Shown: piece by piece, positions 29,366 to 46,474 of the stretch
Position numbering within the stretch: the first letter of the stretch is position 1
How the letters are laid out: each line of letters opens with the position of its first letter
NCBI RefSeq assembly: GCF_900129315.1
Contig: NZ_FQUS01000004.1
Coordinates: forward strand, 124,001-188,000
Reading direction: 5' to 3'
Origin: Fodinibius roseus
Lineage (GTDB): Bacteria > Bacteroidota > Rhodothermia > Balneolales > Balneolaceae
Length of the DNA stretch: 64,000 bases
Made by a program: the position numbers and the translations under genes
Notes under the pieces: generated by a model
The model's input: the letters and a program-made list of their open reading frames with translations, nothing else
The model's database searches: none
Told to the model about the DNA's origin: nothing

Positions 29366-30709
29366 TCAGCTATCAGATGCTCCTTTTTCGGAGGCCTTTT
29401 CTTTAAATTCGCTACCCGCAAAACGAACAACCAAAATCCATCCCATCAAAATGATCAACGCTGCCAGCGACAGCCAGCGCACATTTGCAATACCGACGTA
29501 ATAAGCAACTACAAGATTTAAAACGACTGCCATTACTTTTGCTGAGCGCTGTACAAACATATCAATAAACGCTTTGGCCTTGTATTTGATATCTTTGCTG
29601 GTAGGCGTATACAAGGCTTCCTTTGCGGATTGGTTAATTGAATAATTAAGGCTGTTGTCGCTGGCAGACATAATGGTGGCAAAAAGCAGGCTCGGTAACA
29701 CCAGAAATCCTATTGACCCCAGTGTAATAGCAACAGGCAAAAAAAGCAGTGCAATGCCAACCCCATACCGCTTCATGATAAAACTGGTCAAAAATAGTTG
29801 TACCACAAAAGAAAGGATACCGGTTACCTGACCGACGTAACCAAAATAGGCATCCCTGTTTAAATCACCCGTAACCTGGGCTGCTATAGTCGCCGACAGC
29901 TGAAAGTCCACTATATTGGAAACTATTTCATAAAGGCCTATGAGGCCGACAATGGCCAGCAAATATTTTGAATTAATGACCAGCCTTGCTCCTTCAAATG
30001 CCGCATTGCTCTTATTATTTTCAGTACAAACGGATGTTTCCTCTTCGCTCCCTGCTTCACTTTCCCGCTGGTCAACTATATAGCCGATCACTATCATCAC
30101 GGCCATTGGAACCAGGCATACATAAAGTAATGTAGGACGCCCCCATTCTCCTACAAAACCAGCTACTACGGAAGAGCCCACCATCCCTCCAACAATTCCG
30201 CCAAGTCCCACAATCCCGTACGTCCGTTTAGCCTGGTCTGCGCTAAAAATATCATTGGAGAAAGCCCAGAAAAAGGTGAGAAGCGCTGAATTAAACATAT
30301 CCCCCAACACATAGAACGACCAGCTTACCCCGGCTGCGGGCTCACGCATCAGGTTGGCGAACAGGACGAATAGTCCGCTAAAAATGAGACACAGGATGAG
30401 ATTTATGCTGCGCCGCGAAAACTTCCGGGAAAGAATGGTAAACAGCACTACCACACCATATACAACGAACATGTTAACAACCTTTGCAAGCTGTTCAACC
30501 TCTGCCCCGCTGAAGGAAGTCCCCAATAGCTGAAGCGGTGTATTCTGATAGTAGCTTACAAGCAATCCACGCTTCATCGGTTTCAGAATCCAGAATGTAG
30601 CAATGACCATAAAGAAAAAAGTGGACATAAGCAGAGCTGTCGGCCACTCATTTTTTCTTATATCAAAAAAATGCTTGTAAATACGATTTAAAAAACTCTT
30701 TTTACTCAT
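29366..30709 (-). CDS. MFS/NTT-like transporter (ATP:ADP translocase family relative)
   Basis: The 447-residue protein has about 11-12 membrane segments. Its opening (NEWPTALLMSTFFFMVIATFWILKPMKRGLL) and middle (FFWAFSNDIFSADQAKRTYGIVGLGGIVGG) are typical of the NTT/Npt1 nucleotide-transporter family and its MFS relatives. A later KEALYTPTSKDIKYKAKAFIDM is also characteristic. In free-living bacteria the substrate is unknown, and energy parasitism is not implied. It stands alone, 337 bp from the divergent UPF0173 gene. Confidence 0.8.
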   Translation of the reverse strand: MSKKSFLNRIYKHFFDIRKNEWPTALLMSTFFFMVIATFWILKPMKRGLLVSYYQNTPLQLLGTSFSGAEVEQLAKVVNMFVVYGVVVLFTILSRKFSRRSINLILCLIFSGLFVLFANLMREPAAGVSWSFYVLGDMFNSALLTFFWAFSNDIFSADQAKRTYGIVGLGGIVGGMVGSSVVAGFVGEWGRPTLLYVCLVPMAVMIVIGYIVDQRESEAGSEEETSVCTENNKSNAAFEGARLVINSKYLLAIVGLIGLYEIVSNIVDFQLSATIAAQVTGDLNRDAYFGYVGQVTGILSFVVQLFLTSFIMKRYGVGIALLFLPVAITLGSIGFLVLPSLLFATIMSASDNSLNYSINQSAKEALYTPTSKDIKYKAKAFIDMFVQRSAKVMAVVLNLVVAYYVGIANVRWLSLAALIILMGWILVVRFAGSEFKEKASEKGASDS

Positions 30710-32815: not shown

Positions 32816-33460
32816 ATGGCTCAGATTTTTCCAAAATGGGCAGACGAAGTTCCGCGCCAACTATTGCTTGGGCTTATCATTTTTGCAACAGCAGCAGTTG
32901 CCGGTGTCTGGTATTATTTTTCTCCCGAATACACCGATGTGGGGTATGCCCCTGAACAACCTGTTCCATTCAGCCATCAAATGCATGCCGGTCAGTTGGA
33001 TTTTGACTGCCAGTATTGCCACACGAATGTTTTTGAGTCAAAGCACGCCAATGTGCCGGCCACAGAAACCTGCATGAATTGCCACAACCAGGTGATGACC
33101 GACAGTCCGCGTCTGGAAAAAGTTCGGGAGAGCTGGGAGACGGGAGAAGCCGTTGAATGGATACGGGTACACAACCTGCCGGACTACGCTTATTTCAATC
33201 ATGCAGCACATGTAAACGTCGGCGTCGGGTGTGAAAGCTGTCATGGCCGTGTTGATCGTATGGAGGTCGTCCAGCAGGTAGAACCGCTCAGCATGAGCTG
33301 GTGCCTTGACTGTCACCGCAATCCCGAACAGCAGGTGCGTCCCGTCGAAGAAGTAACGACGATGGGTTATGAGATTGTAAACCAGATAGAAAAAGGACAA
33401 GAGCTTGTGTCTGAAAACAATATCAATCCCCCGACTGATTGTCAAAGCTGTCATTATTAA
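32816..33460 (+). CDS. actA: Alternative complex III pentahaem cytochrome c subunit ActA
   Basis: The 214-residue protein has an N-terminal membrane anchor (about 15-36, LLLGLIIFATAAVAGVWYYF) and five CxxCH haem sites: CQYCH, CMNCH, CESCH, CLDCH and CQSCH. Five haems and the following Act genes identify ActA of the quinol:cytochrome c/HiPIP oxidoreductase ACIII. It sits on the periplasmic face next to ActB. It opens the operon; actB starts 55 bp later. Confidence 0.95.
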   Translation: MAQIFPKWADEVPRQLLLGLIIFATAAVAGVWYYFSPEYTDVGYAPEQPVPFSHQMHAGQLDFDCQYCHTNVFESKHANVPATETCMNCHNQVMTDSPRLEKVRESWETGEAVEWIRVHNLPDYAYFNHAAHVNVGVGCESCHGRVDRMEVVQQVEPLSMSWCLDCHRNPEQQVRPVEEVTTMGYEIVNQIEKGQELVSENNINPPTDCQSCHY

Positions 33461-33515
33461 TTGCCAATTAGGTATAGCACGCCGAACGAACTTGAATTAA
33501 TGCAATCGTAACAGA

Positions 33516-36500
33516 ATGAGCGAAGAAGTCAAAAATCCCAACTACTGGAAAAGCCTGGGCGAACTTGCAAGAAACGAAGAATATGAGAAGTTCGTCGAGC
33601 GTGAGTTTCCCGAAAATGCTACTGAACTCAACGACGAGGTATCGCGACGCAGTTTCCTGCGCGTAATGGGGGCTTCTATTGCCCTGGCCGGCTTTGCGGC
33701 CTGCCGCCGTCCGGTTCAGAAGATCCTGCCCTACTCCGATATGCCGGAAGAGGTAACGCCCGGCAAGCCGTTGTTCTACGCATCGGCCATGCCTTTTCAG
33801 GATGCCCTGACCGGCATTGTCGTAGAAAATCATGAGGGACGACCAACCAAGATCGAAGGAAATGAGCTGCACCCGGCCAGCAGGGGAAATACCAGCATTT
33901 TTGGGCAGGCAGCTATCCTTAATATGTACGACCCCGACCGGTCGCGCTATGTCAGGAAAGACGGGGAGCGATCTTCGGTAAACGCCTTTACTGATTTCTG
34001 TGGCGATCATTTTTCTGATACTGCTCAAAATATTGCTTTTGTTTCGGAAGCCAACTCCTCTCCCACCTACAACAGGCTGAAGGATCAGGCGTTAGCCCGG
34101 TTCTCCAACGCCCGGTGGATTACCTACGAGCCTTTTGGAGAAGATAATGCGCTCGAGGGGACCAATATTGCGTTCGGGCAGCGGCTGCGTACCTTCAATC
34201 AGTTTGACAGCGCCGATGTTATTGTTGCTTTCGATGATGATTTTCTGAATCCCGCTGCGGCCAAAAACAGCGAGGAAAACACCAGGAGATTTACGGACGG
34301 CCGCCATATTGAATCGCCTGAGGACGGCATGTCACGTTTCTATGCGATCGAAAGTACGTTTTCAATAACCGGATCGAACGCCGACAACCGTCTGCGTATC
34401 AAGTCGAGCGATATTGAACCTTTTATCTACGCCCTCGCCGCAGAACTGTCTGATTCGGTTAGCGGACTCTCGGCGTTCAGCGGCATCAGTAACAAGTATT
34501 CCGATCACGAGTGGATTCCCGTATTAGCTGAAGAACTGTTGGAAAATCGCGAAAATTCCATTCTGACCGTCGGACGGGAGCACAAGCCGTCGCTGCATGC
34601 TGCAGTGGCCGCCATGAATCTTGCACTCGGCAATGCGGGACAGACCGTTAGCTATCACCAGGTACCACACCTTGACGAAAATAACAGCCGGGAGGCTTTG
34701 GTCAACCTTACTGAAGATCTCAACGCCGGCAGGATCGACACGGTTGTCTTGGTGGGCACCAACCCCGCATTCACCGCCCCGGCCGACCTGAACTTTGCTG
34801 ATGCGCTTTCCGGAGCGGGACAGGTTATTCACCTCTCTGATTATTACGACGAGACCTCCAGTCTGGCCCAATGGCATCTTAACCGGGCCCACTTTCTTGA
34901 GGCCTGGGGCGACGGCTCCTCCTATACGGGTACCCGTTCTGTTATTCAGCCCCAAATCGAACCGCTCTATTCCGGCATAAGTGAAATTGAGTTTTTAAAC
35001 ACGATCCTGACGGGGGAACAGCGCGACGGCTACGAGCTCGTCCGGGAGACCTGGCAATCGTACTATACGTCGGATTTTGAGAGCGGATGGAAACAAGCGC
35101 TCCACGACGGTGTGGCCGCGGAAGAGGAGTTTCCAACGGTTTCCGTTACTCTTTCCGATAACTTCAGCTCTGCTGCGGGTGATTTTGCAACCGGCAGCGA
35201 AGCTTCCGAAGGCATGGAACTGGTCATTCGGCCCGATTCCACCGTCTTTGACGGACGCTTTGCCAATAACGGCTGGCTGCAGGAATTGCCCAAGCCGATG
35301 ACCAAGATTACGTGGGACAATGTGGCACTGATGAGTAAGAAGACCGCCGACCAGCTGGACGTTACGGCAGCGGGACTCGGGGAAGCGGAAGTAGAGGTCG
35401 TTGCTATCACGGTCGACGGAACCACCGTTGAAATGCCGGCCTGGGTGCAACCGGGACACGCCGATAACAGCATCACCATCACCGTTGGGTACGGCCGCGA
35501 GGGTATCGGGCGTGTGGCAAACAAGACCGGCGTTGACACCTACCCGCTGCGCACGACTTCAAATATGTTGTATGCAAGCGACATCTCGGTAGAAAAGACC
35601 GGTAAAACCTATGAAATCGCCTGTACCCAGGATCATAATACGATGGAGGGGCGGTCGCTCCTGCGCCACGCCACGCTGCAGGAATATCGCGATGATCCCA
35701 ACTTCTCAAGCTACGAATCTTCTTATAATGCTGAGATGCCGGGTGTCGCTTATGCTGAAGAAACGACCGGCGACAGTGATCCACTCTCAATTTTCGACGC
35801 TATTGACGAGCAGGAATACCCGGCTGATGAACCGCAGTGGGGTATGTCGATCGATCTGAACGCCTGTACCGGCTGCGGTGTCTGTACGATCGCCTGTACG
35901 GCAGAAAATAATATTCCGGTCATCGGTAAACGCGAGGTAAGCCGGGGACGCGAAATGCACTGGATCCGGAACGACCGGTATTTTGACGGCGATGTCAACA
36001 ATCCGAAGGCCCTGCACCAGCCTGTGCCCTGTATGCACTGCGAGCTGGCCCCCTGCGAGCAAGTATGCCCGGTAGCGGCAACCACCCACAGCGATGACGG
36101 CATGAACCAGATGACCTATAATCGCTGCATCGGTACCCGCTATTGCGCCAACAACTGCCCGTATAAAGTACGCCGTTTCAACTTTTTCAACTATACCAAA
36201 GAGTTTTTAACCGAAGGGGATGATCCCGAGATTGTCCAGATGGCGATGAATCCGGAAGTAACTATTCGTTTCCGCGGGGTTATGGAAAAATGCACCTATT
36301 GCGTGCAGCGGGTTAACCGTGCCAAGATCGAGACCAAAATCGAGACGGACGGCGAGACGAAAAAACCCGCCGACGGTTCGGTCGAAACGGCATGCCAGCA
36401 AGCGTGTCCCGCCGATGCTATTTACTTCGGTGATCTTACGGATCCCGAAAGCGAAGTGGTCAAAACAAAGAAAAACAACCGAAATTACCTGCTTCTCGAA

Positions 36501-36569
36501 GAGCTGAATACACGACCGAGAACGTCGTATCTCTCCAAAATTCGTAATCCCAATCCCAAATTGGCTTAA
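33516..36569 (+). CDS. actB: Alternative complex III iron-sulfur/molybdopterin-like subunit ActB
   Basis: The 1017-residue subunit has a twin-arginine signal ([12 protein letters not shown], about residue 45), a large molybdopterin-oxidoreductase-like domain without an obvious cofactor site, and a C-terminal ferredoxin domain with four cysteine clusters ([39 protein letters not shown] plus ACQQAC). ActB carries the Fe-S clusters and passes electrons from quinol to the haems. The size is typical. It precedes actC by 17 bp. Confidence 0.95.
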
Positions 36570-36586
36570 TTCTCAATAACTTTACG

Positions 36587-38020
36587 ATGAGCACAGATTA
36601 TCAATACGTACCGGAGCCAAAACTCGTAAAAGGTGATCATACCTTTGGGAGTATTACCGATCTTATCGCTAAGACACCTCTGTCTCCCACGCCCAAATTG
36701 TGGTATCTGGCATTTGGACTTGCTAACATCCTACTTATTGTTCTTTTAGGTGCTATCGGGTATCTCATTTGGGATGGCACCGGTATCTGGGGATTAAACA
36801 ACCCGGCCGGATGGGGTTGGGCTATTATCAACTTTGTCTGGTGGGTTGGAATCGGTCACGCCGGTACGCTGATTTCGGCTATTCTATTCCTTTTTCGCCA
36901 GGGATGGCGGACCGCGATCAACCGTTTTGCAGAGGCGATGACCATCTTTGCCGTGATGTGTGCCGGTATCTTCCCGGCTATTCACGTGGGACGTATATGG
37001 GTGATCTACTGGGTGTTTCCCATTCCCAACCAGATGGCCGCATGGCCGAACTTTTCGAGTCCCCTGTTGTGGGACGTTTTTGCAGTGAGTACCTATTTTA
37101 CGGTTTCCCTGCTCTTCTGGTATGTGGGATTGATCCCCGATTTAGCTACACTGCGGGATAAAGCCAAAAGCAAAGTGGCCAAAATTTCGTACGGTATCGC
37201 CGCCCTGGGCTGGACCGGCAGCTTTCGCAACTGGTGGAACTACGAAAAAGCGTATATGATACTGGCAGGACTTGCTACGCCGCTGGTGCTTTCGGTACAC
37301 ACTATCGTATCGTTCGACTTTGCGGTTTCCGTCATTCCGGGCTGGCACAGCACGATTTTCCCCCCTTATTTTGTGGCCGGTGCTATCTATTCCGGCTTTG
37401 CCATGGTACTGACGCTGATGCTTATCGCCCGCAAGATATACGGGCTTGAAGATATCATGAACATCGATATCATGGAAAAAATGAACCTGGTGATGATGAT
37501 AACGGGGAATCTGGTGGCCTTTGCATACCTGATGGAAGGCTTTGTTGCCTGGTACAGCGGGTATATTTACGAACAGGGCATATTCTGGCTCTATGTCGTA
37601 GGTCCCTATGCCTGGGGATTTTGGATCCTGATGTTCTGCAACGTCGTAACGCCGCAGTTTCTCTGGTTCAAGAATATTCGGCGCAACGTAGCTATTACGT
37701 TCGTGATATCCATTATAGTCAACATCGGCATGTGGTTTGAACGCTTTATGATTTCCGTAGCTTCCCTGTCTACCGATTTTATGCCCTCGGCGTGGGATTA
37801 TTATTCGCCCAGTTTTTGGGATATTGCAACCTATATAGGAACATTCGGACTCTTTTTTACTTTCTTCCTGCTCTTCCTGCGTTTTCTGCCGATGGTTGCC
37901 ATTGCCGAAGTCAAAGGCGTTATGCCGCAGGCTGATCCGCACAATTACGACGGGGAGACCAACGAATTTGACCCGAGCAAAACCGAACCTGTAGTAGTAC
38001 AACAAGAGCAAACCGTTTAG
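36587..38020 (+). CDS. actC: Alternative complex III NrfD-like membrane subunit ActC
   Basis: The 477-residue NrfD/PsrC-type protein has about ten membrane helices and is the quinol-binding subunit of ACIII. Visible blocks include [40 protein letters not shown] and [16 protein letters not shown] soluble C-terminus rich in acid residues ends the protein. It is flanked by actB and actD at 17 and 12 bp. Confidence 0.94.
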
Positions 38021-38032
38021 TAACTGATAATC

Positions 38033-38581
38033 ATGGAAACAGAAAACAATAATATTTACGGTGTATTAGCTGAGTTCCGTAATCCCAAAGAACTTGTTGA
38101 TGCGGCTGCTTCAGTAAAAAAATCAGGCTATAAAGATTTCGACACCTATGCTCCTTTCCCCGTCCACGGAATGGAAGAGGCAATGGGACTCAAAGAATCT
38201 CCTTTGGGCTGGATCGTGCTGGGAGGTGCCATAACCGGCATGGTTGGAATCCTCGCCCTTATGATATGGGTGATGGGCTACGAATATCCGATGAATATCA
38301 GCGGCAAACCCTATATCAATCTGCCCATTTATGTACCGATCACTTTTGAAATAACGGTTCTGTTCTCCGCATTTGCAGCAGTCTTCGGGATGTTCTTTCT
38401 CAACAACCTGCCACGTTTCAATAATCCGCTTTTTAATGTGGAACGCTTTGAGAAAGCTTCGGATGACGGCTTTTTTGTCTGTGTAGAAGCGTCGGACGAT
38501 CTTTTTGCCGAAGAAAAAGTGGCTAAACTGTTTCAGGATAACGGGGCCACACACATAGAAACCATTTACGATTCGGAATAA
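38033..38581 (+). CDS. actD: Alternative complex III subunit ActD (DUF3341)
   Basis: The 182-residue protein has the DUF3341 layout: a soluble N-terminal part with YGVLAEFRNPKELVDAA, two membrane helices (about 60-82 and 100-122), and a C-terminal region with LPRFNNPLFN and DDGFFVCVEA. ActD is a structural subunit of ACIII. The order act B-C-D-E-F is conserved with Rhodothermus marinus and other ACIII loci. Confidence 0.93.
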   Translation: METENNNIYGVLAEFRNPKELVDAAASVKKSGYKDFDTYAPFPVHGMEEAMGLKESPLGWIVLGGAITGMVGILALMIWVMGYEYPMNISGKPYINLPIYVPITFEITVLFSAFAAVFGMFFLNNLPRFNNPLFNVERFEKASDDGFFVCVEASDDLFAEEKVAKLFQDNGATHIETIYDSE

Positions 38582-38616
38582 CTCACAAAACAATCTTTAG
38601 TTTGCACAATAATCCG

Positions 38617-39717
38617 ATGAAAGCTACCAAGTATTTATTTATTGCGGCCGTTGCACTGCCGATGATCCTCGCCTCATGTCGCGGACAAATTTCCGAAAAG
38701 CCCCCGGTTCACCCCAATATGAATATGGACCAGCAAAAACGGTTTGAACCGCAGGAGCGCAATGAATTCTTTGACGACAATCGCGCTATGCGTCAGCCTG
38801 TGGAAGGGACGGTAGCCCGGGGCAATTTAAAAGCGGACAAAGCCTACTACCAGGGTATTAACGAGGACAGCAGTTTCGTTGATGAAATTCCACCAGAACT
38901 CACAAAGTCATTTTTATACCGGGGGAAAGATCGTTACGAGGTATTCTGTACTCCCTGTCACGGCATCGCCGGGGACGGGCAGGGCATCATCATGACCAAT
39001 AACTACGGCTTTGTGCCGGCGCCGAGCTTTCATATCGATCGCCTGCGAAACGTGAGCGACGGCTATATCTATTCAACCATTGCCAACGGAATCCGCAATA
39101 TGCCTTCCTACGCCCAACAAATCCCGGTCAAAGATCGCTGGGCTATCGTTGCCTATGTGCGTGCCCTGCAGCAAAGCCAAAATGCCACAGAAGAAGAAAT
39201 TCGAAGATACGATGTTGATATCGCATCCATGCAGGAAGAATACCAACAGCAGCAGGCAGCACTGGCGGAAGCCGAAGAGGCCGCCTCTCAGGATGAAGGC
39301 GGAGAGGTTTCCGTGGAGCGGGGCGAGACTATTGCTGCGGATAATGCCTGCGGGGCCTGTCATTCTACGGACGGCTCTAGAACCGTGGGGCCCACCTGGC
39401 AAAATCTGTATGGGTCTGAACGACCGCTGGACGATGGCTCAACCGTAACGGCTGATGAAGAATACCTGCGTGAATCCATTGTAGAGCCCTCCGCCAAAAT
39501 TGCTGAAGGCTTTCCCCCGTCGATGGTGCCGTACGATCATCTGAGTGACAGTGAAATCAATTCAATTATCGAATATATTAAATCGCTAAGTGACCTGGAG
39601 CCTCCGGCGGAAGAGGATTCAGAATCAAACGAGGAAAGTGCTTCTACAGGTCAACCCGCAGATACGACGATGACGGCTGAGGCATCAACACAAAAAAAAA
39701 GCCTGTTAGTTCCGTGA
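38617..39717 (+). CDS. actE: Alternative complex III cytochrome c lipoprotein ActE with an extra cytochrome c domain
   Basis: Start ATG 38617 gives a lipoprotein signal (FIAAVALPMILASC), 366 residues. The first haem site CTPCHG (about residue 112) lies in the normal monohaem ActE domain. A Glu/Ala-rich linker then leads to a second domain, CGACHS, with [28 protein letters not shown] and IIEYIKSL, closely like the tail domain of the CoxB subunit here. The end is a Ser/Thr/Glu-rich tail containing a run of nine A bases at 39692-39700. A -1 slip there would join it to the next cytochrome frame. Confidence 0.92.
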   Translation: MKATKYLFIAAVALPMILASCRGQISEKPPVHPNMNMDQQKRFEPQERNEFFDDNRAMRQPVEGTVARGNLKADKAYYQGINEDSSFVDEIPPELTKSFLYRGKDRYEVFCTPCHGIAGDGQGIIMTNNYGFVPAPSFHIDRLRNVSDGYIYSTIANGIRNMPSYAQQIPVKDRWAIVAYVRALQQSQNATEEEIRRYDVDIASMQEEYQQQQAALAEAEEAASQDEGGEVSVERGETIAADNACGACHSTDGSRTVGPTWQNLYGSERPLDDGSTVTADEEYLRESIVEPSAKIAEGFPPSMVPYDHLSDSEINSIIEYIKSLSDLEPPAEEDSESNEESASTGQPADTTMTAEASTQKKSLLVP

Positions 39718-40058
39718 AAACCGATACTACTGATACGACAACCGGGGCGCGATCGGACACGCTGTCTGCCAGTGCTCGCAACGGCAAAGAACTTTTTGAA
39801 GATCATGACTGCCAAAGCTGTCACCCCATTGACGGGGAGAAGCAACTGGCGCCTCCGATAAGTGGTTTATTCGGAAGTGAACGTGAACTTGAGGACGGGT
39901 CGACAGTGATCGCTGACGAAGGTTATATCAAAGAATCGATACAATACCCGGGTGCAAAAGTTGTAATGGGGTTCAATAACAACATGCCTTCGTTCAGAGA
40001 TCTCATGACGGGCCGGGAGCTGCAGGAAGTTACAGACTATATCAAGGCATTGCGTTAA
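39681..40058 (+). CDS. Cytochrome c domain in the -1 frame after ActE, possible frameshift extension
   Basis: This frame is open from the codon after a stop at 39678-39680 to 40058. Reading as a separate gene requires a GTG at 39714 that overlaps the actE stop by 4 bp, giving 114 residues with no signal peptide; yet it has a haem site CQSCHP, LFGSE, EDGSTVIADEGYIKESI and YIKALR, homologous to the ActE and CoxB tail domains. A haem c domain must be exported, so independent translation makes little sense. A -1 slip on the A9 run gives a continuous Thr/Ser linker. The alternative is a real or sequencing-derived one-base change. Confidence 0.75.
   Translation, partial: GINTKKKPVSSVKTDTTDTTTGARSDTLSASARNGKELFEDHDCQSCHPIDGEKQLAPPISGLFGSERELEDGSTVIADEGYIKESIQYPGAKVVMGFNNNMPSFRDLMTGRELQEVTDYIKALR
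39692..39700 (+). other. A9 slippery run at the ActE / cytochrome c junction
   Basis: Nine A residues lie within the 37-base window where the actE frame and the -1 frame are both open. Such runs promote transcriptional slippage or -1 ribosomal frameshifting in bacteria. Slipping would bypass the actE stop at 39715. Confidence 0.6.
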
Positions 40059-40103
40059 CATTAACGTACTTATACCAAAAGCTTAATTGTTTTCAAAGAA
40101 ATT

Positions 40104-41288
40104 ATGAGCAATCCTAAATTAACCGATACGCTGGATTTTCCATCTGACCTGAATGTAACCAAATCGCTATTTGGGGTAGGTATAGTAGGTTTAATAGCCA
40201 GTGGCATAGGATATTTTCTTGAACACGACCAGTTTTTCTTTTCATACCTGGTCAACTTCGCCTTCTTTTCCAGTATTGCCCTGGGCAGCTTATTCTTTGT
40301 GCTTGTTCAACATCTTACGCGATCACACTGGAGCGTAGCCATTCGCCGCATCCCTGAAGCTATTTCATCCAACTTTTGGATCTGGGGACTGTTTATTATC
40401 CCTTTGCTGCTGGGCATGCACTCACTTTATCACTGGACCCACGCCGACGCCGTAGCACACGACCCGGTACTGCAGGGAAAGTCGGCTTACCTGAATACCA
40501 CTTTTTTCATTATCCGGCAGTTCATCTACTTTGCACTTTGGAGCTTCCTGGGCTACCGCCTCTACAATAAATCCGTCGAAATGGATGAAACCGGCGACTG
40601 GGGACTCCAAACCCTGTTGCGCAGAACGAGCGGACCCGGACTCTTTTTCTTTGGAATTACGCTGGCTTTTGCTTCCTTCGACTGGCTGATGACTCTCGAT
40701 CCCCACTGGTATTCCACCATCTTCGGCGTCTATTACTTCGCAATGAGTTTCCAGGGATTATTTGCCACCCTCATCCTTATCGTACTTTTCCTGTGGAAAA
40801 AAGGATTGCTCACCAATACCATCCAACGGGGACATATCTATGATCTGGGCGTCCAGCTGTTCGGATTTACGGTCTTTTACGCCTACATCGCCTTCAGTCA
40901 ATTTTTACTGATCTATTATGCCAACATCCCCGAAGAAACCGTGTGGTATTTGGAACGTCTCAGCGGCGGATATGAATATTTAGCTTACTTTTACCTGTTT
41001 GGACGCTTTGTCATTCCCTTTATCGTGCTGCTTCCCAAGCGCAGCAAGTCCAATTACAATATTATCGGCTCAATGTCCGTATTAATACTGGCTGCGCACC
41101 TGGTTGAATTGTACTGGCTTGTGATGCCGGTACTCGACCATCACGGGTTCCACTTCAACTGGATGATTATAACCACTTTCTTTGGCCTGGGAGGCATCTT
41201 CCTGGGACTGTTTTTCCACAAGTTCAAACAGAATAAGATGATTCCCGTAAATGACCCGCAACTGGGTGATTCCCTCAACAAACACTAA
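40104..41288 (+). CDS. actF: Alternative complex III membrane subunit ActF
   Basis: The 394-residue polytopic protein has about ten helices and resembles the ActC-like, quinol:cytochrome c oxidoreductase ActF subunits: HSLYHWTHADAVAHDPVLQGKSAYLN, FASFDWLMTLDPHWYSTIFGVYYFA, and LYWLVMPVLDHHG near the end. It completes the ACIII gene set. The following 70 bp to the HTH-membrane gene contain no terminator, so transcription may run on. Confidence 0.93.
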   Translation: MSNPKLTDTLDFPSDLNVTKSLFGVGIVGLIASGIGYFLEHDQFFFSYLVNFAFFSSIALGSLFFVLVQHLTRSHWSVAIRRIPEAISSNFWIWGLFIIPLLLGMHSLYHWTHADAVAHDPVLQGKSAYLNTTFFIIRQFIYFALWSFLGYRLYNKSVEMDETGDWGLQTLLRRTSGPGLFFFGITLAFASFDWLMTLDPHWYSTIFGVYYFAMSFQGLFATLILIVLFLWKKGLLTNTIQRGHIYDLGVQLFGFTVFYAYIAFSQFLLIYYANIPEETVWYLERLSGGYEYLAYFYLFGRFVIPFIVLLPKRSKSNYNIIGSMSVLILAAHLVELYWLVMPVLDHHGFHFNWMIITTFFGLGGIFLGLFFHKFKQNKMIPVNDPQLGDSLNKH

Positions 41289-41359
41289 ACGTAACTATCG
41301 TCTAATGCGTTGAAAGCAGTAAGGGCCTGCCCGCTGCGATGACAAGTTTTTAAAATCTT

Positions 41360-41917
41360 ATGACAAGCGAAGAGAACAAATACAGTCCGGAGTTTAAAAA
41401 GAAGGTTGCCCGAAAAGCGCTTGAGCAATCCAAACAAAATCTTGAGTCCCTCTCTGAACAATACGGCGTGCCCGTCTCGGTTATTCTTATGTGGGCGACC
41501 GAACTTGAAAAAGGGGGCGATCAGGTATTTGAAACGGCCGAAGAAAATGTTGAAAAGGAGAAAGAAGAATCGGAGAATCTTGACCTGTCCATATCCGATG
41601 AAGAGGTAGCAAGCGCGATGGAGCATGGCGTCATGTTTGATAACCTGAATTATAAACGCCTTGTTTTTTGGAGCGTTCTGGGCATTATTCTCGTTATTGT
41701 ATTTGTTCAGGCCCTTTTTGAAATGTTCCAATATAATGAACGGGCCCTGCAAGATCGTGTCTCTGCCGAAAGTGGTGAGTTTTACCAGGCAACCCAGCTC
41801 AAAAAAAAGGCAGAAGAAAGGATAACCAGTTTTGGGATTGTCAACCTTGAAGAAGGGACTTACAGAATGCCCGTCGACAGCGTAATCAATGATATGGCTG
41901 CGGATGGGGACAACTGA
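41360..41917 (+). CDS. HTH plus single-membrane-helix protein within the respiratory operon
   Basis: The 185-residue protein joins three parts. Residues about 7-48 (KYSPEFKKKVARKALEQS, then LSEQYGVPVSVILMWATELE) look like the transposase-type helix-turn-helix of IS3 OrfA proteins. An acidic coil (about 50-85) follows, then a membrane helix at about 98-118 (LVFWSVLGIILVIVFVQALF). The C-terminal stretch ends in FGIVNLEEGTYRMPVDSVIND, like small proteins next to SCO genes that carry a GWxDxxxGxxRIPI motif. It lies between actF and SCO. A domesticated HTH used for membrane-proximal binding is possible, but the function is unknown. Confidence 0.7.
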   Translation: MTSEENKYSPEFKKKVARKALEQSKQNLESLSEQYGVPVSVILMWATELEKGGDQVFETAEENVEKEKEESENLDLSISDEEVASAMEHGVMFDNLNYKRLVFWSVLGIILVIVFVQALFEMFQYNERALQDRVSAESGEFYQATQLKKKAEERITSFGIVNLEEGTYRMPVDSVINDMAADGDN

Positions 41918-41939
41918 TTTATAGATATAGACAGAATAT

Positions 41940-42782
41940 ATGTACTATGTAGGGCCAGCAGCTATTGTACTCTTAAGCTTACTCCTACAGCCGGCAAACT
42001 CCGTTGCACAGCTTAATAGGCAGAAACCTGAAAACATAGAGAATGTCGGAGTCACTGAGCGTCTGGGCGAAAAGATTCCGCTGGATCTGACATTTGCCAG
42101 TGCGAAAGGAGATTCAGTTTCCCTACAGGAACTGTTTGAGGATAACAAGCCGGTGCTTTTGAACCCGGTTTATTATGAATGTCCCCAGCTCTGCTCTATG
42201 ATTAAAGAAGCAATCTTTCAGGGCGTAAAGGACTTGCAGTGGAGTCCGGGCAGCGACTATAATATTATTACTTTCAGTTTCGATCATGAAGAAGGACATA
42301 AGCTGGCAGCAGAAAACAAGCAGCGATTTTTAAACAAGCTGGATAGAAAAGGGGCCGAAAACGGCTGGCATTTTCTAAGTGGCAATAAAGAAAATATCAA
42401 AAAACTGACCGGGGCCGTAGGCTTTGATTATAACAAGCTTGAAAACGGGCAGTATGCCCACGGGGCAGCCATCATGTTTTTGAGTCCCAATGGCACCATA
42501 ACAAGATATCTTTACGGCCTGAAGTTTGACGAATTCAATATGCGGAATGCACTTTACGAAGCGGCGGACGGCGAAATCGGCAGTACAGCCGAACAAGTAT
42601 TGCTCTACTGCTATCAATACGATGCGGATTCCAACTCGTATGCACCTGTTGCCTGGAGAATTATGAAGTTAGGTGGCTTTGCTACCATGATAATTCTGGG
42701 TATATTTCTTGGCTTTATGTGGCTGCGATACCGATATTCTACTAATGAAAAGCAAATAAAAGAACCGAATGGACGCGCTTAA
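41940..42782 (+). CDS. SCO1/SenC/PrrC-family copper chaperone
   Basis: The 280-residue protein has a signal peptide (about 1-23), a thioredoxin-like SCO domain with the copper CxxxC motif CPQLC and the conserved His in YAHGAAIMF, and an unusual C-terminal membrane helix (about 243-262). SCO proteins deliver copper to the CuA site of oxidase subunit II, which is the very next gene; the two overlap by 14 bp. The C-terminal anchor would hold the domain at the membrane after signal cleavage. Confidence 0.92.
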   Translation: MYYVGPAAIVLLSLLLQPANSVAQLNRQKPENIENVGVTERLGEKIPLDLTFASAKGDSVSLQELFEDNKPVLLNPVYYECPQLCSMIKEAIFQGVKDLQWSPGSDYNIITFSFDHEEGHKLAAENKQRFLNKLDRKGAENGWHFLSGNKENIKKLTGAVGFDYNKLENGQYAHGAAIMFLSPNGTITRYLYGLKFDEFNMRNALYEAADGEIGSTAEQVLLYCYQYDADSNSYAPVAWRIMKLGGFATMIILGIFLGFMWLRYRYSTNEKQIKEPNGRA

Positions 42783-43719
42783 CGATCTACTACTACCGCC
42801 GGCGAAATCAACGCTGGCTCACCAGACTGACACTCTTTTTTGGTTTGTTCACCTGAGCGGACTTGTACTAACGATTGGACTTATCGGGGTTCTCATCTAC
42901 TTTGTCATTAAATACCGGCGGGAGTCGGAAGACGAAGTAACGCCTCTGATAACCCACAATAACAAGTTGGAGGTCACCTGGTCAGTCATACCGCTCATTA
43001 TGGTACTCATTGTCTTTGGATGGGGATACCAGGTTTTCATGGAACAACGGGTAGCCCCCGACGACGCTTATGAAGTAAACGTTACGGGACAAAAATGGAT
43101 TTGGCAGTTTACTTATGAGAACGGGGCCCGGACCAATGGTGAACTACATGTTCCCGCCGGACGGCCGGTTAAGCTGATTATGAACTCCAGCGATGTCATT
43201 CACTCCTTTTATGTGCCCGACTACCGTATCAAACAGGATGTCCTGCCCGGCCGTTATACGGAGGTTTGGTTTAATGCGCCGGAACCCGGCGAGTCCATCG
43301 TCTTTTGTACCGAATATTGCGGTACCTCACACTCCGATATGACTGCGAAAGTGATTGTTCATGAAGAAGGTGAATTTGAAAACTGGCTGGCGGATAATGC
43401 CGGGGGCGGTGGCATGCCTGAAGACCTGGCCCCCGCCGAATGGGGAGAGCAGCTGGCGCAGGAATGGGCCTGCTCAACCTGTCATTCTGCTGACGGAAGC
43501 GATATGACCGGTCCCACCTGGCAGGGATTGTTTGGGCACGAGGTCCAGTTGTCGGATGGTTCGACGGTAACGGCCGATGAAAATTACATACGTGAATCGA
43601 TTTTAGAGCCCGGGGCCAAAGTCGTTGATGGATATCCGAATGTGATGAATACCTATCAGGGACAGCTGAATGACGAACAGATCAATGCGATTATAGAATA
43701 CATAAAAACACTGAAATAA
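42769..43719 (+). CDS. coxB: Cytochrome c oxidase subunit II with fused cytochrome c domain (caa3 type)
   Basis: The 316-residue subunit has two membrane helices (about 20-42 and 62-82), a cupredoxin domain with the CuA ligands (His in DVIHSFYVP, Cys pair in [12 protein letters not shown]) and a C-terminal monohaem domain with [17 protein letters not shown] and [11 protein letters not shown]. Fused subunit II defines the caa3 class and fits direct electron delivery from ACIII. The tail domain is homologous to those of ActE and the -1-frame cytochrome. It is followed 1 bp later by coxA. Confidence 0.96.
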
Positions 43720-43720
43720 T

Positions 43721-45454
43721 ATGTCTACTGAAGAAACAAATCTTAAAAAAATCCAGGTTCAACGGTATGAACCGGAATCAGATCCTGACCAACATTATCT
43801 GAATGAAGAGACAGGAATATGGGCATGGTTGACGACCGTCGACCACAAAAAAATCGGGCTGATGTATCTCGCCTCTGTCACCTTTTTCTTCTTTGTGGGT
43901 GGCATTATGGCGCTGCTGGTGCGTACTGAACTGTGGACACCTGCCAAAACCTTTATCGAGGCTAATACCTATAACCAGATTTTTACGCTTCACGGCGCCA
44001 TTATGGTGTTCCTGTTCCTGGTGCCCTCGGTACCCGCCGCGCTGGGCAACTTTTTTCTGCCTTTACAGCTCGGGGCCAAGGATGTAGCCTTTCCCAGGCT
44101 TAACCTGCTAAGCTATTATCTTTATGTAGCGGGAGCCCTCATTGCCATAGTATCGATTGTAAATGGCGGTATTGACACCGGCTGGACGTTCTACACCCCC
44201 TACTCTTCGACGACGGGCGGGGCGGTTACCACCATGGTCTTTGGCGTTTTTGTCATCGGCTTTTCTTCCATCCTAACCGGGGTCAACTTCATAACGACCA
44301 TCCACAAGATGCGGGCACCCGGACTCAGCTGGGATAAACTCTCCCTCTTTTCCTGGAGCCTCTATGCTACCAGCATTATACAGATTCTGGCAACGCCGGT
44401 TCTTGCGATCACGCTGGCACTGGTCGGCTTGGAGCGTTTGCTCGGTATCGGCATCTTTGATCCCGCGCTCGGCGGCGACCCGGTACTCTTCCAGCACTTT
44501 TTCTGGTTTTACAGTCACCCGGCCGTATATATCATGATTGTACCGGGCTTCGGCATTGTTTCGGAAGTCATTACGACCTTTTCCAAAAAACATATCTTTG
44601 GATACTGGGCTATCGCCCTTTCCTCCCTGGCCATTGCCTTTATCGGGTTTCTGGTCTGGGGACACCATATGTTCGTTTCCGGTCAGGCTTCCCTGGCTTC
44701 CATGGTCTTCTCGTTCCTGACTTTCCTGGTCGGTATTCCCACCGGGATTAAGATGTTTAACTGGACAGCCACCCTTTACAAGGGATCTATTAAACTGGCA
44801 TCGCCCCTGCTGTATATTTTCGGATTTTTCTTCCTTTTCCTGGTAGGTGGACTGACGGGCATTGTGCTCGGATCTATTGCGCTGAACGTACACCTCCACG
44901 ATACCTACTATGTGGTCGCCCACTTTCACTTTGTTATGGTAGGCGGCATGGTGATGGCCTTTTTAGCCGGAGTACACTACTGGTGGCCAAAGATGACGGG
45001 ACGCCTGTATAATGAGACCCTGGCCAAGATTGCCTGCGGCATTATTTTTGTCGGCTTTAACGTTACCTTCCTGCCCCAGTTTGTGATGGGATCCCTGGGC
45101 ATGCCGCGGCGGTATTTCAATTACATCGAACAATTTCAGGTCTATCATCAAATTTCGACCATAGGCTCCTATATCCTGGGTATCGGCTTTGTAATGATCT
45201 TCTATTACCTGGTAAAATCAATCTACACCGGCGAAAAAGCCTCCCCCAACCCCTGGGGCAGCCGGGCACTCGAGTGGCAGGTCAATTCTCTGCCTCCGCT
45301 TCACAATTTCCATCACACACCCGTTATTATCAACGGTCCGTATGACTACCACAAGCCGATGGATGAATTTCAGCTCGGCCTTGCTGAAAGCGGAAACGGC
45401 CATGGAACCGAAGTGGACGTCAGCAGCACAGAAGAAAAGCCCCAAGCGGAATAA
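43721..45454 (+). CDS. coxA: Cytochrome c oxidase subunit I, A2-type
   Basis: The 577-residue subunit has twelve or more helices with haem a/a3 and CuB ligands: [35 protein letters not shown], and [19 protein letters not shown]. The segment before the CuB His reads FYSHP, so the classical D-channel Glu is absent and the Tyr-Ser pair marks the A2 subfamily, as in Rhodothermus and Thermus caa3 oxidases. The cross-linked His-Tyr partner is implied by HPAVY. It pumps protons while reducing oxygen. Confidence 0.97.
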
Positions 45455-45494
45455 CCAACCGAGTATTAAATTATAAAACAGTACAATCTGAATT

Positions 45495-46148
45495 ATGGCA
45501 AATCATTCAACCTCCTCACATTCCCGATATCTGCAGCATCATTTTGTGGATGCCGAGCAACAGTTCGACGCTGCCAAAATGGGTATGTGGGTATTCCTGG
45601 TAACGGAAATCCTCTTTTTTGGCGGACTTTTTGCCGCTTATATTGTATACAGGCTGTGGTACCCGGAACTTTTCGTCATGGCCTCAGAAGAGCTTAACAC
45701 GCTGTGGGGCGGTGTTAATACGGTCGTACTTATCGGAAGCAGTCTGACTGTTGCCATGGCGATCAAGTCGGCCCAGCTTAATCAAAAAAGAAACATCGCC
45801 ATTAACCTGGGAATCACCCTGGCCCTTGCAGCTATTTTTATGGTAATTAAATATTTTGAATGGACGCACAAGTTTCACCTGGGAATCTTTCCCGGTGAGT
45901 TTTATGCCTACGAAGGCATCGATCACCCCAAGGCCAATGTCTTTTTTAGCCTTTATTACCTGATGACCGGCCTGCACGGTCTTCACGTTATTATCGGGAT
46001 CGGACTCATGATCTGGCTGTTGGTACGTTCGGTCAAAGGCCATTTTGACAGCGAATACTATACCCCGGTTGAGATTACCGGTCTTTACTGGCACCTGGTC
46101 GATATCATCTGGATTTTCCTTTTCCCCCTGTTCTATCTAATTGACTGA
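45495..46148 (+). CDS. coxC: Cytochrome c oxidase subunit III
   Basis: The 217-residue protein has five to six membrane helices with subunit III motifs: AAKMGMWVFLVTEILFFGGLFAAY, TVVLIGSSLTVAMA, FFSLYYLMTGLHGLHVIIGIG and YWHLVDIIWIFLFPLFYL. It stabilises proton uptake and assembly of subunit I. It begins 40 bp after coxA and precedes coxD by 23 bp. Confidence 0.95.
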   Translation: MANHSTSSHSRYLQHHFVDAEQQFDAAKMGMWVFLVTEILFFGGLFAAYIVYRLWYPELFVMASEELNTLWGGVNTVVLIGSSLTVAMAIKSAQLNQKRNIAINLGITLALAAIFMVIKYFEWTHKFHLGIFPGEFYAYEGIDHPKANVFFSLYYLMTGLHGLHVIIGIGLMIWLLVRSVKGHFDSEYYTPVEITGLYWHLVDIIWIFLFPLFYLID

Positions 46149-46171
46149 TAACTTAAAAACGATTTATCCCT

Positions 46172-46474
46172 ATGAGCGGACATCATATTTCAACAGATAA
46201 AACCCTATTGGGTGTAGCCGGCGGACTCCTGGTTTTGACGGTGCTTACCGTTGTTGTACACTATTTGCATCTTCCCGATCCCTGGTCCATCATCGTTGCC
46301 ATGGGCATTGCTACATTTAAAGCAATGCTGGTAGCGCTCTTCTTTATGAACCTGTACTGGGACAAGCGCTTTAACCTGATGCTTTTTGGAACCTCTATTG
46401 TCTTTCTTGCGCTTTTGGTAGGCCTCACCCTCCTCGACACGCTGTTTCGCGTTGATGTCCTACCGAGCTTCTGA
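46172..46474 (+). CDS. coxD: Cytochrome c oxidase subunit IV (caa3 type)
   Basis: The 100-residue protein has three membrane helices and the small subunit IV pattern (VVVHYLHLPDPWSIIVAMGIATFKAMLVALFFMNLYWDKR). It ends the oxidase operon and is followed by a strong terminator. Function is by family and position. Confidence 0.9.
   Translation: MSGHHISTDKTLLGVAGGLLVLTVLTVVVHYLHLPDPWSIIVAMGIATFKAMLVALFFMNLYWDKRFNLMLFGTSIVFLALLVGLTLLDTLFRVDVLPSF

Follow-up and report, generated by a model that had tools for sequence, protein, structure and literature searches.

A haem c domain out of frame with actE in Fodinibius roseus, and a run of nine A residues that may join it to ActE

The dnaX gene of E. 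coli is subject to ribosomal −1 frameshifting. The locus that we describe here lies in a 64,000-nucleotide stretch of the Fodinibius roseus genome (the window, meaning the whole of the DNA analysed), where the frame of the cytochrome gene actE is overlapped at its end by a −1 frame encoding a further haem c domain. Like E. coli dnaX, this locus has a slippery heptamer in frame, with a GAGG (39679-39682) ten bases 5' of it. Unlike E. coli dnaX, it has no downstream stem-loop that we could find, the neighbouring gene starts carry no clear Shine-Dalgarno sequence by eye, and the direction of the shift is not conserved in G006, the one other genome in which we find the domain. Set against −1 ribosomal frameshifting of the dnaX type, then, the heptamer is present, and the downstream structure and the conserved direction are not.

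Runs of A provide a second point of comparison. The precedent for slippage at A9 is T. thermophilus dnaX, where the shorter form makes up half of the product; actE likewise has nine A residues within a coding region, but the slip in dnaX leads to the shorter form, while a slip in actE would lead to the longer one (PMC1088944, in the extract available). In C. rodentium tssM1, transcriptional slippage on A11 occurs at about 20%. There as here a stop soon after the A-run removes a C-terminal domain, and added A residues give two length variants; the two loci differ in that the run is A9 here, in that slippage was found by experiment for tssM1 and our case is known from sequence, and in that the extra part here is a whole haem domain (PMC4256274, in the extract available).

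For ActE itself the described counterpart is the one-haem ActE of R. marinus, which has been proposed as electron donor to the caa3 oxidase, by way of the cytochrome domain of that enzyme; ActE in the family of F. roseus has two haems, and a possible third in F. roseus and G006 only (R. marinus after the extract of PMC5928083). The first domain of F. roseus ActE matches R. marinus ActE (6f0k_E, E 6e-76), and the second (E 3.7e-24) and third (E 2.4e-22) both match the R. marinus caa3 cytochrome domain (1w2l_A). A caa3-type third domain on ActE would, we infer, give the complex longer or more numerous exits for electrons. If the slippage reading is true, frameshifting would set the haem count of an electron-transfer chain. 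Searches of the open-licence literature, mostly of titles and abstract openings, returned neither a cytochrome nor an alternative complex III whose haem number depends on frameshifting, nor any programmed frameshifting of a c-type cytochrome; among the best matches listed, no open-licence paper concerned a recoded ActE by its title or abstract opening. In one paper that mentions both alternative complex III and a frameshift, the frameshift concerns a hydrogenase.

The actE locus and its third haem domain

The source genome is a 64-contig draft of 5.08 Mb. Positions 32816-46474 of the window hold the act operon, for alternative complex III, with cytochrome oxidase genes behind it. Several of the gene names are provisional family assignments; ActE was named by its match to 6f0k_E and CoxB by a family search. 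Both homology to a solved ActE and the act-operon context identify ActE as the alternative complex III subunit, and actA-F and the cox genes are present in all eight relatives compared. The ORF list begins the actE frame at a TTG (38602) ahead of the ATG, the actE stop is the TGA at 39715-39717, and the ActE query of the family and structure searches ran from 38638, seven codons into the gene. The features are collected in Table 1.

Table 1. Features of the actE locus, in positions of the window
Feature	Position	Strand	Description
actE	38617..39717	+	lipoprotein (MKATKYLFIAAVALPMILASC) of 366 aa, counted from ATG; subunit E of alternative complex III; two haem c domains
Third haem c domain frame	39681..40058	+	−1 relative to actE; CQSCH, Met of NNMPSF; no signal peptide
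Overlap of actE and third-domain frames	39681..39717	+	37 nt
A9 run	39692..39700	+	one of 65 distinct A9+/T9+ runs in the genome
GTGA	39714..39717	+	first ATG/GTG/TTG of the third-domain frame; overlaps actE TGA
actF	40104..41288	+	next operon gene; directly after actE in the domain-less relatives read

The initial annotation had described actE as ending at 39717 and a −1 frame, open from 39681, as encoding a full haem c domain with no signal peptide, and this is borne out by the frames, by Pfam (Cytochrom_C, E 9.8e-10, a complete domain) and by the match to 1w2l_A. Its observation that the nine A residues are the only long run in the overlap also holds. These frames and the run are observed directly, as are the integrity of the domain and the lack of a signal peptide ahead of it in F. 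roseus, judged by eye from the GTG at 39714. That this GTG overlaps the actE stop had not been remarked on previously. The CxxCH motif and the Met, which we take as the distal ligand, are invariant across 26 aligned domains. It is established that the attachment of haem c takes place outside the cytoplasm, and on this the earlier argument that the domain requires export for its maturation stands. Since the F. roseus domain has no signal peptide of its own, a shift at the run is the likeliest route by which it would reach the site of haem attachment.

Distribution, constraint and origin of the third domain

Among 58 genomes searched, F. roseus included, 33 of the 35 from the same family match ActE, all 33 to at least residue 330, and 22 of the 23 from other families of the order match it no further than residue 237. 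On these matches, the members of this family as a rule have an ActE with two haems. A search across the phylum, with the full 366-aa protein as query, gave a strict ActE match in 65 of 247 sampled genomes. An orthologue of the third domain (70% identity) was found in G006 alone of 11 other members of the genus, and a strict profile search of 128 genomes of the order (E <=1e-32) detected the domain in F. roseus and G006 only. A looser search of 92 family genomes (E <=1e-27) brought two extra matches at ~1e-28, in ORFs of 352 and 318 codons, which are the sizes of two-haem ActE and CoxB. Comparison of relatives for fused and split forms had been proposed as a check on slippage; neither the 58-genome nor the 247-genome search disclosed a fused three-domain ActE by open-frame length, a measure that is blind to a split third domain. 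Two ORFs of more than 400 codons, in G279 and G155, were considered as fused ActE and ruled out, as ActE in them ends after one haem domain and the open frames are GC-rich.

The nearest relative of F. roseus, both by actE identity and in a nine-genome operon tree, is G001, which is without the third domain. G008 is also without it, yet retains a stretch resembling its 3' flank, which suggests loss. The absence of the domain from G001 and G008 suggests that it was lost outright there, and indicates that it is dispensable.

Where it is present, the domain is conserved. Between F. roseus and G006, in which it is 74% identical, its pS is 0.73 (saturated) and its pN 0.146 over 92 codons, compared with 0.75 and 0.154 for ActE. 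At 34 columns in which 80% or more of 33 related domains agree, both carriers match at 25; the deviations comprise seven that are shared, two in G006 alone and none in F. roseus alone. Judged by these substitution patterns, the third domain is under strong purifying selection, constrained like ActE itself, and has been retained for function through most of the period since F. roseus and G006 diverged. The sole hint of relaxation is the longer branch of the F. roseus domain in the domain tree (0.24, against 0.13 for G006); despite this branch, the conserved columns show no relaxed selection on the F. roseus domain. The two genomes offer a clear test case for the survival of a constrained domain out of frame.

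As to origin, the third domains of F. roseus and G006 group together in a clade (100/99) that is sister, weakly (79/81), to the haem domain of frames of ~940-960 codons. Tandem duplication of the second ActE domain is unsupported, for the third domains fall outside the ActE and CoxB domains in the tree. We also considered a recent transfer between F. roseus and G006 and rejected it, as the local DNA of F. roseus is not clearly closer to that of G006 than to that of G001: identity is 0.74 and 0.76 versus 0.71 and 0.81 in two 150-column blocks before the linker, and 0.85 versus 0.84 in the block after it. The tree of second ActE domains pairs F. roseus with G006 (98/81); in the nine-genome operon tree F. 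roseus pairs with G001, and the position of G006 is weakly supported (0.63). The best match to the third domain elsewhere in the F. roseus genome (46%) is a haem c domain in an ORF of 962 codons (C40, 59913-60239; locus L051), and similar ORFs of 942-951 codons are found in G001, G006 and G008.

The A9 run and the split in G006

The run occupies the actE codons CAA AAA AAA AGC, and within it the heptamer A_AAA_AAA (39693-39699) has the form X_XXY_YYZ in the zero frame. Runs of A or T in the genome number 608 of exactly eight, 61 of nine, four of ten and none longer. The ratio of nines to eights is 0.10, far below the 0.32 that P(A|A) in the window predicts, so runs of nine or more are avoided or unstable in F. 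roseus, fitting slippage or mutation. Nine is the length at which such avoidance becomes evident in a large proportion of genomes (PMC1088944, in the extract available). At the genome density of such runs, a coding-strand A9 within the 37-nt overlap is expected 1.9e-4 times, an estimate made post hoc; we therefore take the run to be linked to the frame break, whether it caused the break, remedies it, or both.

When all 65 runs were examined, 11 besides that in actE proved to lie inside uninterrupted ORFs, with at least 50 codons on either side, the ORFs being judged by codon usage only and not by comparison with homologues. A9 is thus tolerated within F. roseus genes, and slippage on it may be modest. 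Ten of these 11 are A-runs on the coding strand, for example that in L086 (1912), and each is a possible slippage site.

A stimulatory RNA fold at the junction was sought and the idea dropped: no fold beat shuffled sequences in three stretches of F. roseus (z 0.20, 0.79 and 1.16) or in G006 (z 0.05, −0.52 and 0.04), and an Rfam search returned a single match at chance level (E 0.98).

In G006 the split falls at the same spot, but there the third domain lies in the +1 phase relative to actE, and GCAAAAGAAAG replaces the A-run. The idea that a slippery run is conserved among carriers consequently fails on G006, the only other carrier found, and we reject a conserved −1 frameshift signal, given the opposite phase and the missing run. 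Mixed directions among orthologues have been read as pointing to transcriptional realignment and not to ribosomal frameshifting (PMC3711429, in the extract available); this criterion, as given there, presumes a slippery run, and G006 is without one. What the two carriers share is the distance from the actE stop to the same GTG, which is at most 4 nt in both (GTGA in F. roseus, TAA-4 nt-GTG in G006).

The third-domain frame of G006 extends upstream through MYLRKKLLILQLMSLLLQKKVSNS, overlapping the actE tail by ~116 nt (locus L005, 1492-1607, − strand). Within the actE tail, this frame contains a signal-like leader, MYLRKKLLILQLMSLLLQKK, in which a hydrophobic part is followed by two lysines; it weakly suggests an overlapping gene. 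A relative whose domain gene had its own signal peptide had been named beforehand as evidence against slippage, and G006 comes close to providing one, although on a weakly supported leader. Nine of 20,000 synonymous recodings of the G006 actE tail reach the score of the leader, a score that was chosen after seeing the sequence. By hydrophobicity alone, recodings that are as good make up 0.0004-0.019 of the total under genome-like codon usage and 0.02-0.10 when codons are drawn as in the tail itself, over several window sizes and codon pools.

Alternative frames of operon genes in nine genomes were also examined for such stretches. Nine of 954 open 40-codon windows in the +1 frame pass as signal-like, compared with none of the 127 that overlie a polar host frame and none of 683 in the +2 frame. 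The nine windows overlap and fall on only four stretches. All four are in actB and three are orthologous; signal-like stretches therefore do occur in spurious frames. With windows of 36 codons, the G006 stretch is the only further one to pass. No signal-like segment was found in the two alternative frames of the F. roseus actE tail.

Possible routes to a third haem

Our reading of these results is that the cell probably joins ActE and the third domain occasionally, through slippage on the A9 run. A −1 shift there would produce the junction ...TQKKKPVSSV..., whether RNA polymerase adds an A and so makes A10 transcripts or the slip is ribosomal, on A_AAA_AAA. With the lipoprotein signal of ActE at their head, all three domains would then reach the periplasm, where haem could be attached. 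We infer the slippage, its rate, and the export and haem loading of the long form from sequence. Of what marks a slippage gene, two features are present, an A/T run of some nine bases or more where the frames overlap and a constrained alternative frame at the C-terminus; the run is not kept in the orthologue, and ActE is a candidate for this known class. The two-form slippage reading of the initial annotation survives in that the domain is constrained, needs export and has an A9 placed so as to fuse it to ActE, and loses its expectation of a conserved run. That a shift at A9 lets F. roseus add the domain to the C-terminus of a minority of its ActE, whether the arrangement was selected or is a salvaged loss, we put at a little under an even chance.

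Two explanations take the frame break as recent or as unreal. A-runs are mutational hot spots, and a three-domain fusion with a longer run may have lost one base recently, leaving the sampled strain with an allele that is broken or phase-varying; leakage through the run might still make some long form, but unprogrammed. An A9 in the overlap suits a break that arose at the run, the longer branch of the F. roseus domain is in keeping with it, and the apparent outright loss in G001 and G008 also speaks for it; the conserved columns, however, show no relaxed constraint, an A10 ancestor would itself be unusual in a genome with so few runs of that length, and the split of G006 at the same place in the absence of an A-run requires two independent breaks at one spot. 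We regard this loss as the main rival, possible if on the unlikely side. Long A-runs are also a classic site of sequencing and assembly error, and in a draft of many contigs the true run could be A10 (or A7) and the gene a plain fusion. The 11 other runs in uninterrupted ORFs of the same assembly disfavour a general error in run length, and G006 is split too, with no homopolymer there to explain an error, making this very unlikely.

The remaining explanations take the split as real. It is conceivable, though we think it unlikely, that two species of the genus maintain the split itself, in opposite phases, rather than any particular slippery site, and that it yields a small share of three-haem ActE or a separate exported domain. 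Alternatively, ribosomes finishing actE could restart at the GTG and so make the domain as a separate polypeptide (translational coupling). Stop and start lie within the 10 nt taken to indicate such coupling (PMC3711429, in the extract available) in both carriers, despite their differing phase, and both have an A-rich stretch upstream at a similar distance. By chance, though, starts this close to a stop are not rare (roughly one gene in three, by our own estimate), and 11 other gene starts that were read, like that of actE, are ATG, where a restart would use GTG. More seriously, the product would be cytosolic, with no signal peptide, and should not be a working cytochrome, yet its haem ligands are conserved; we consider restart improbable. 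Most doubtful of all is that the third domain is a separate gene overlapping the actE tail with an export signal of its own, a state kept in G006 and lost in F. roseus. The continuation of the G006 frame through its leader and the few recodings that equal its score speak for such a gene. Against it are the post hoc choice of that score and the recoding fractions of up to 0.10 by hydrophobicity alone, the equally signal-like stretches in spurious frames of actB, the two lysines behind the hydrophobic part, and the F. roseus tail, which has no such segment; we give it very little credence.

Two other genes of the window deserve mention. Inside the act-cox operon, 41360-41917 (+) encodes a 185-aa protein with an N-terminal helix-turn-helix like that of IS3 transposases (HTH_Tnp_1, 20.1 bits, under the cut-off of 24.1), followed by what appears by eye to be a membrane segment. 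The protein is present in all eight relatives compared, at 58-71% identity, and looks like the DNA-binding part of a transposase taken into a respiratory operon. Upstream of the operon, 29366-30709 (−) encodes a homologue of the TLC-family ATP/ADP transporters (E 4.4e-24), which are best known from intracellular bacteria and plastids.
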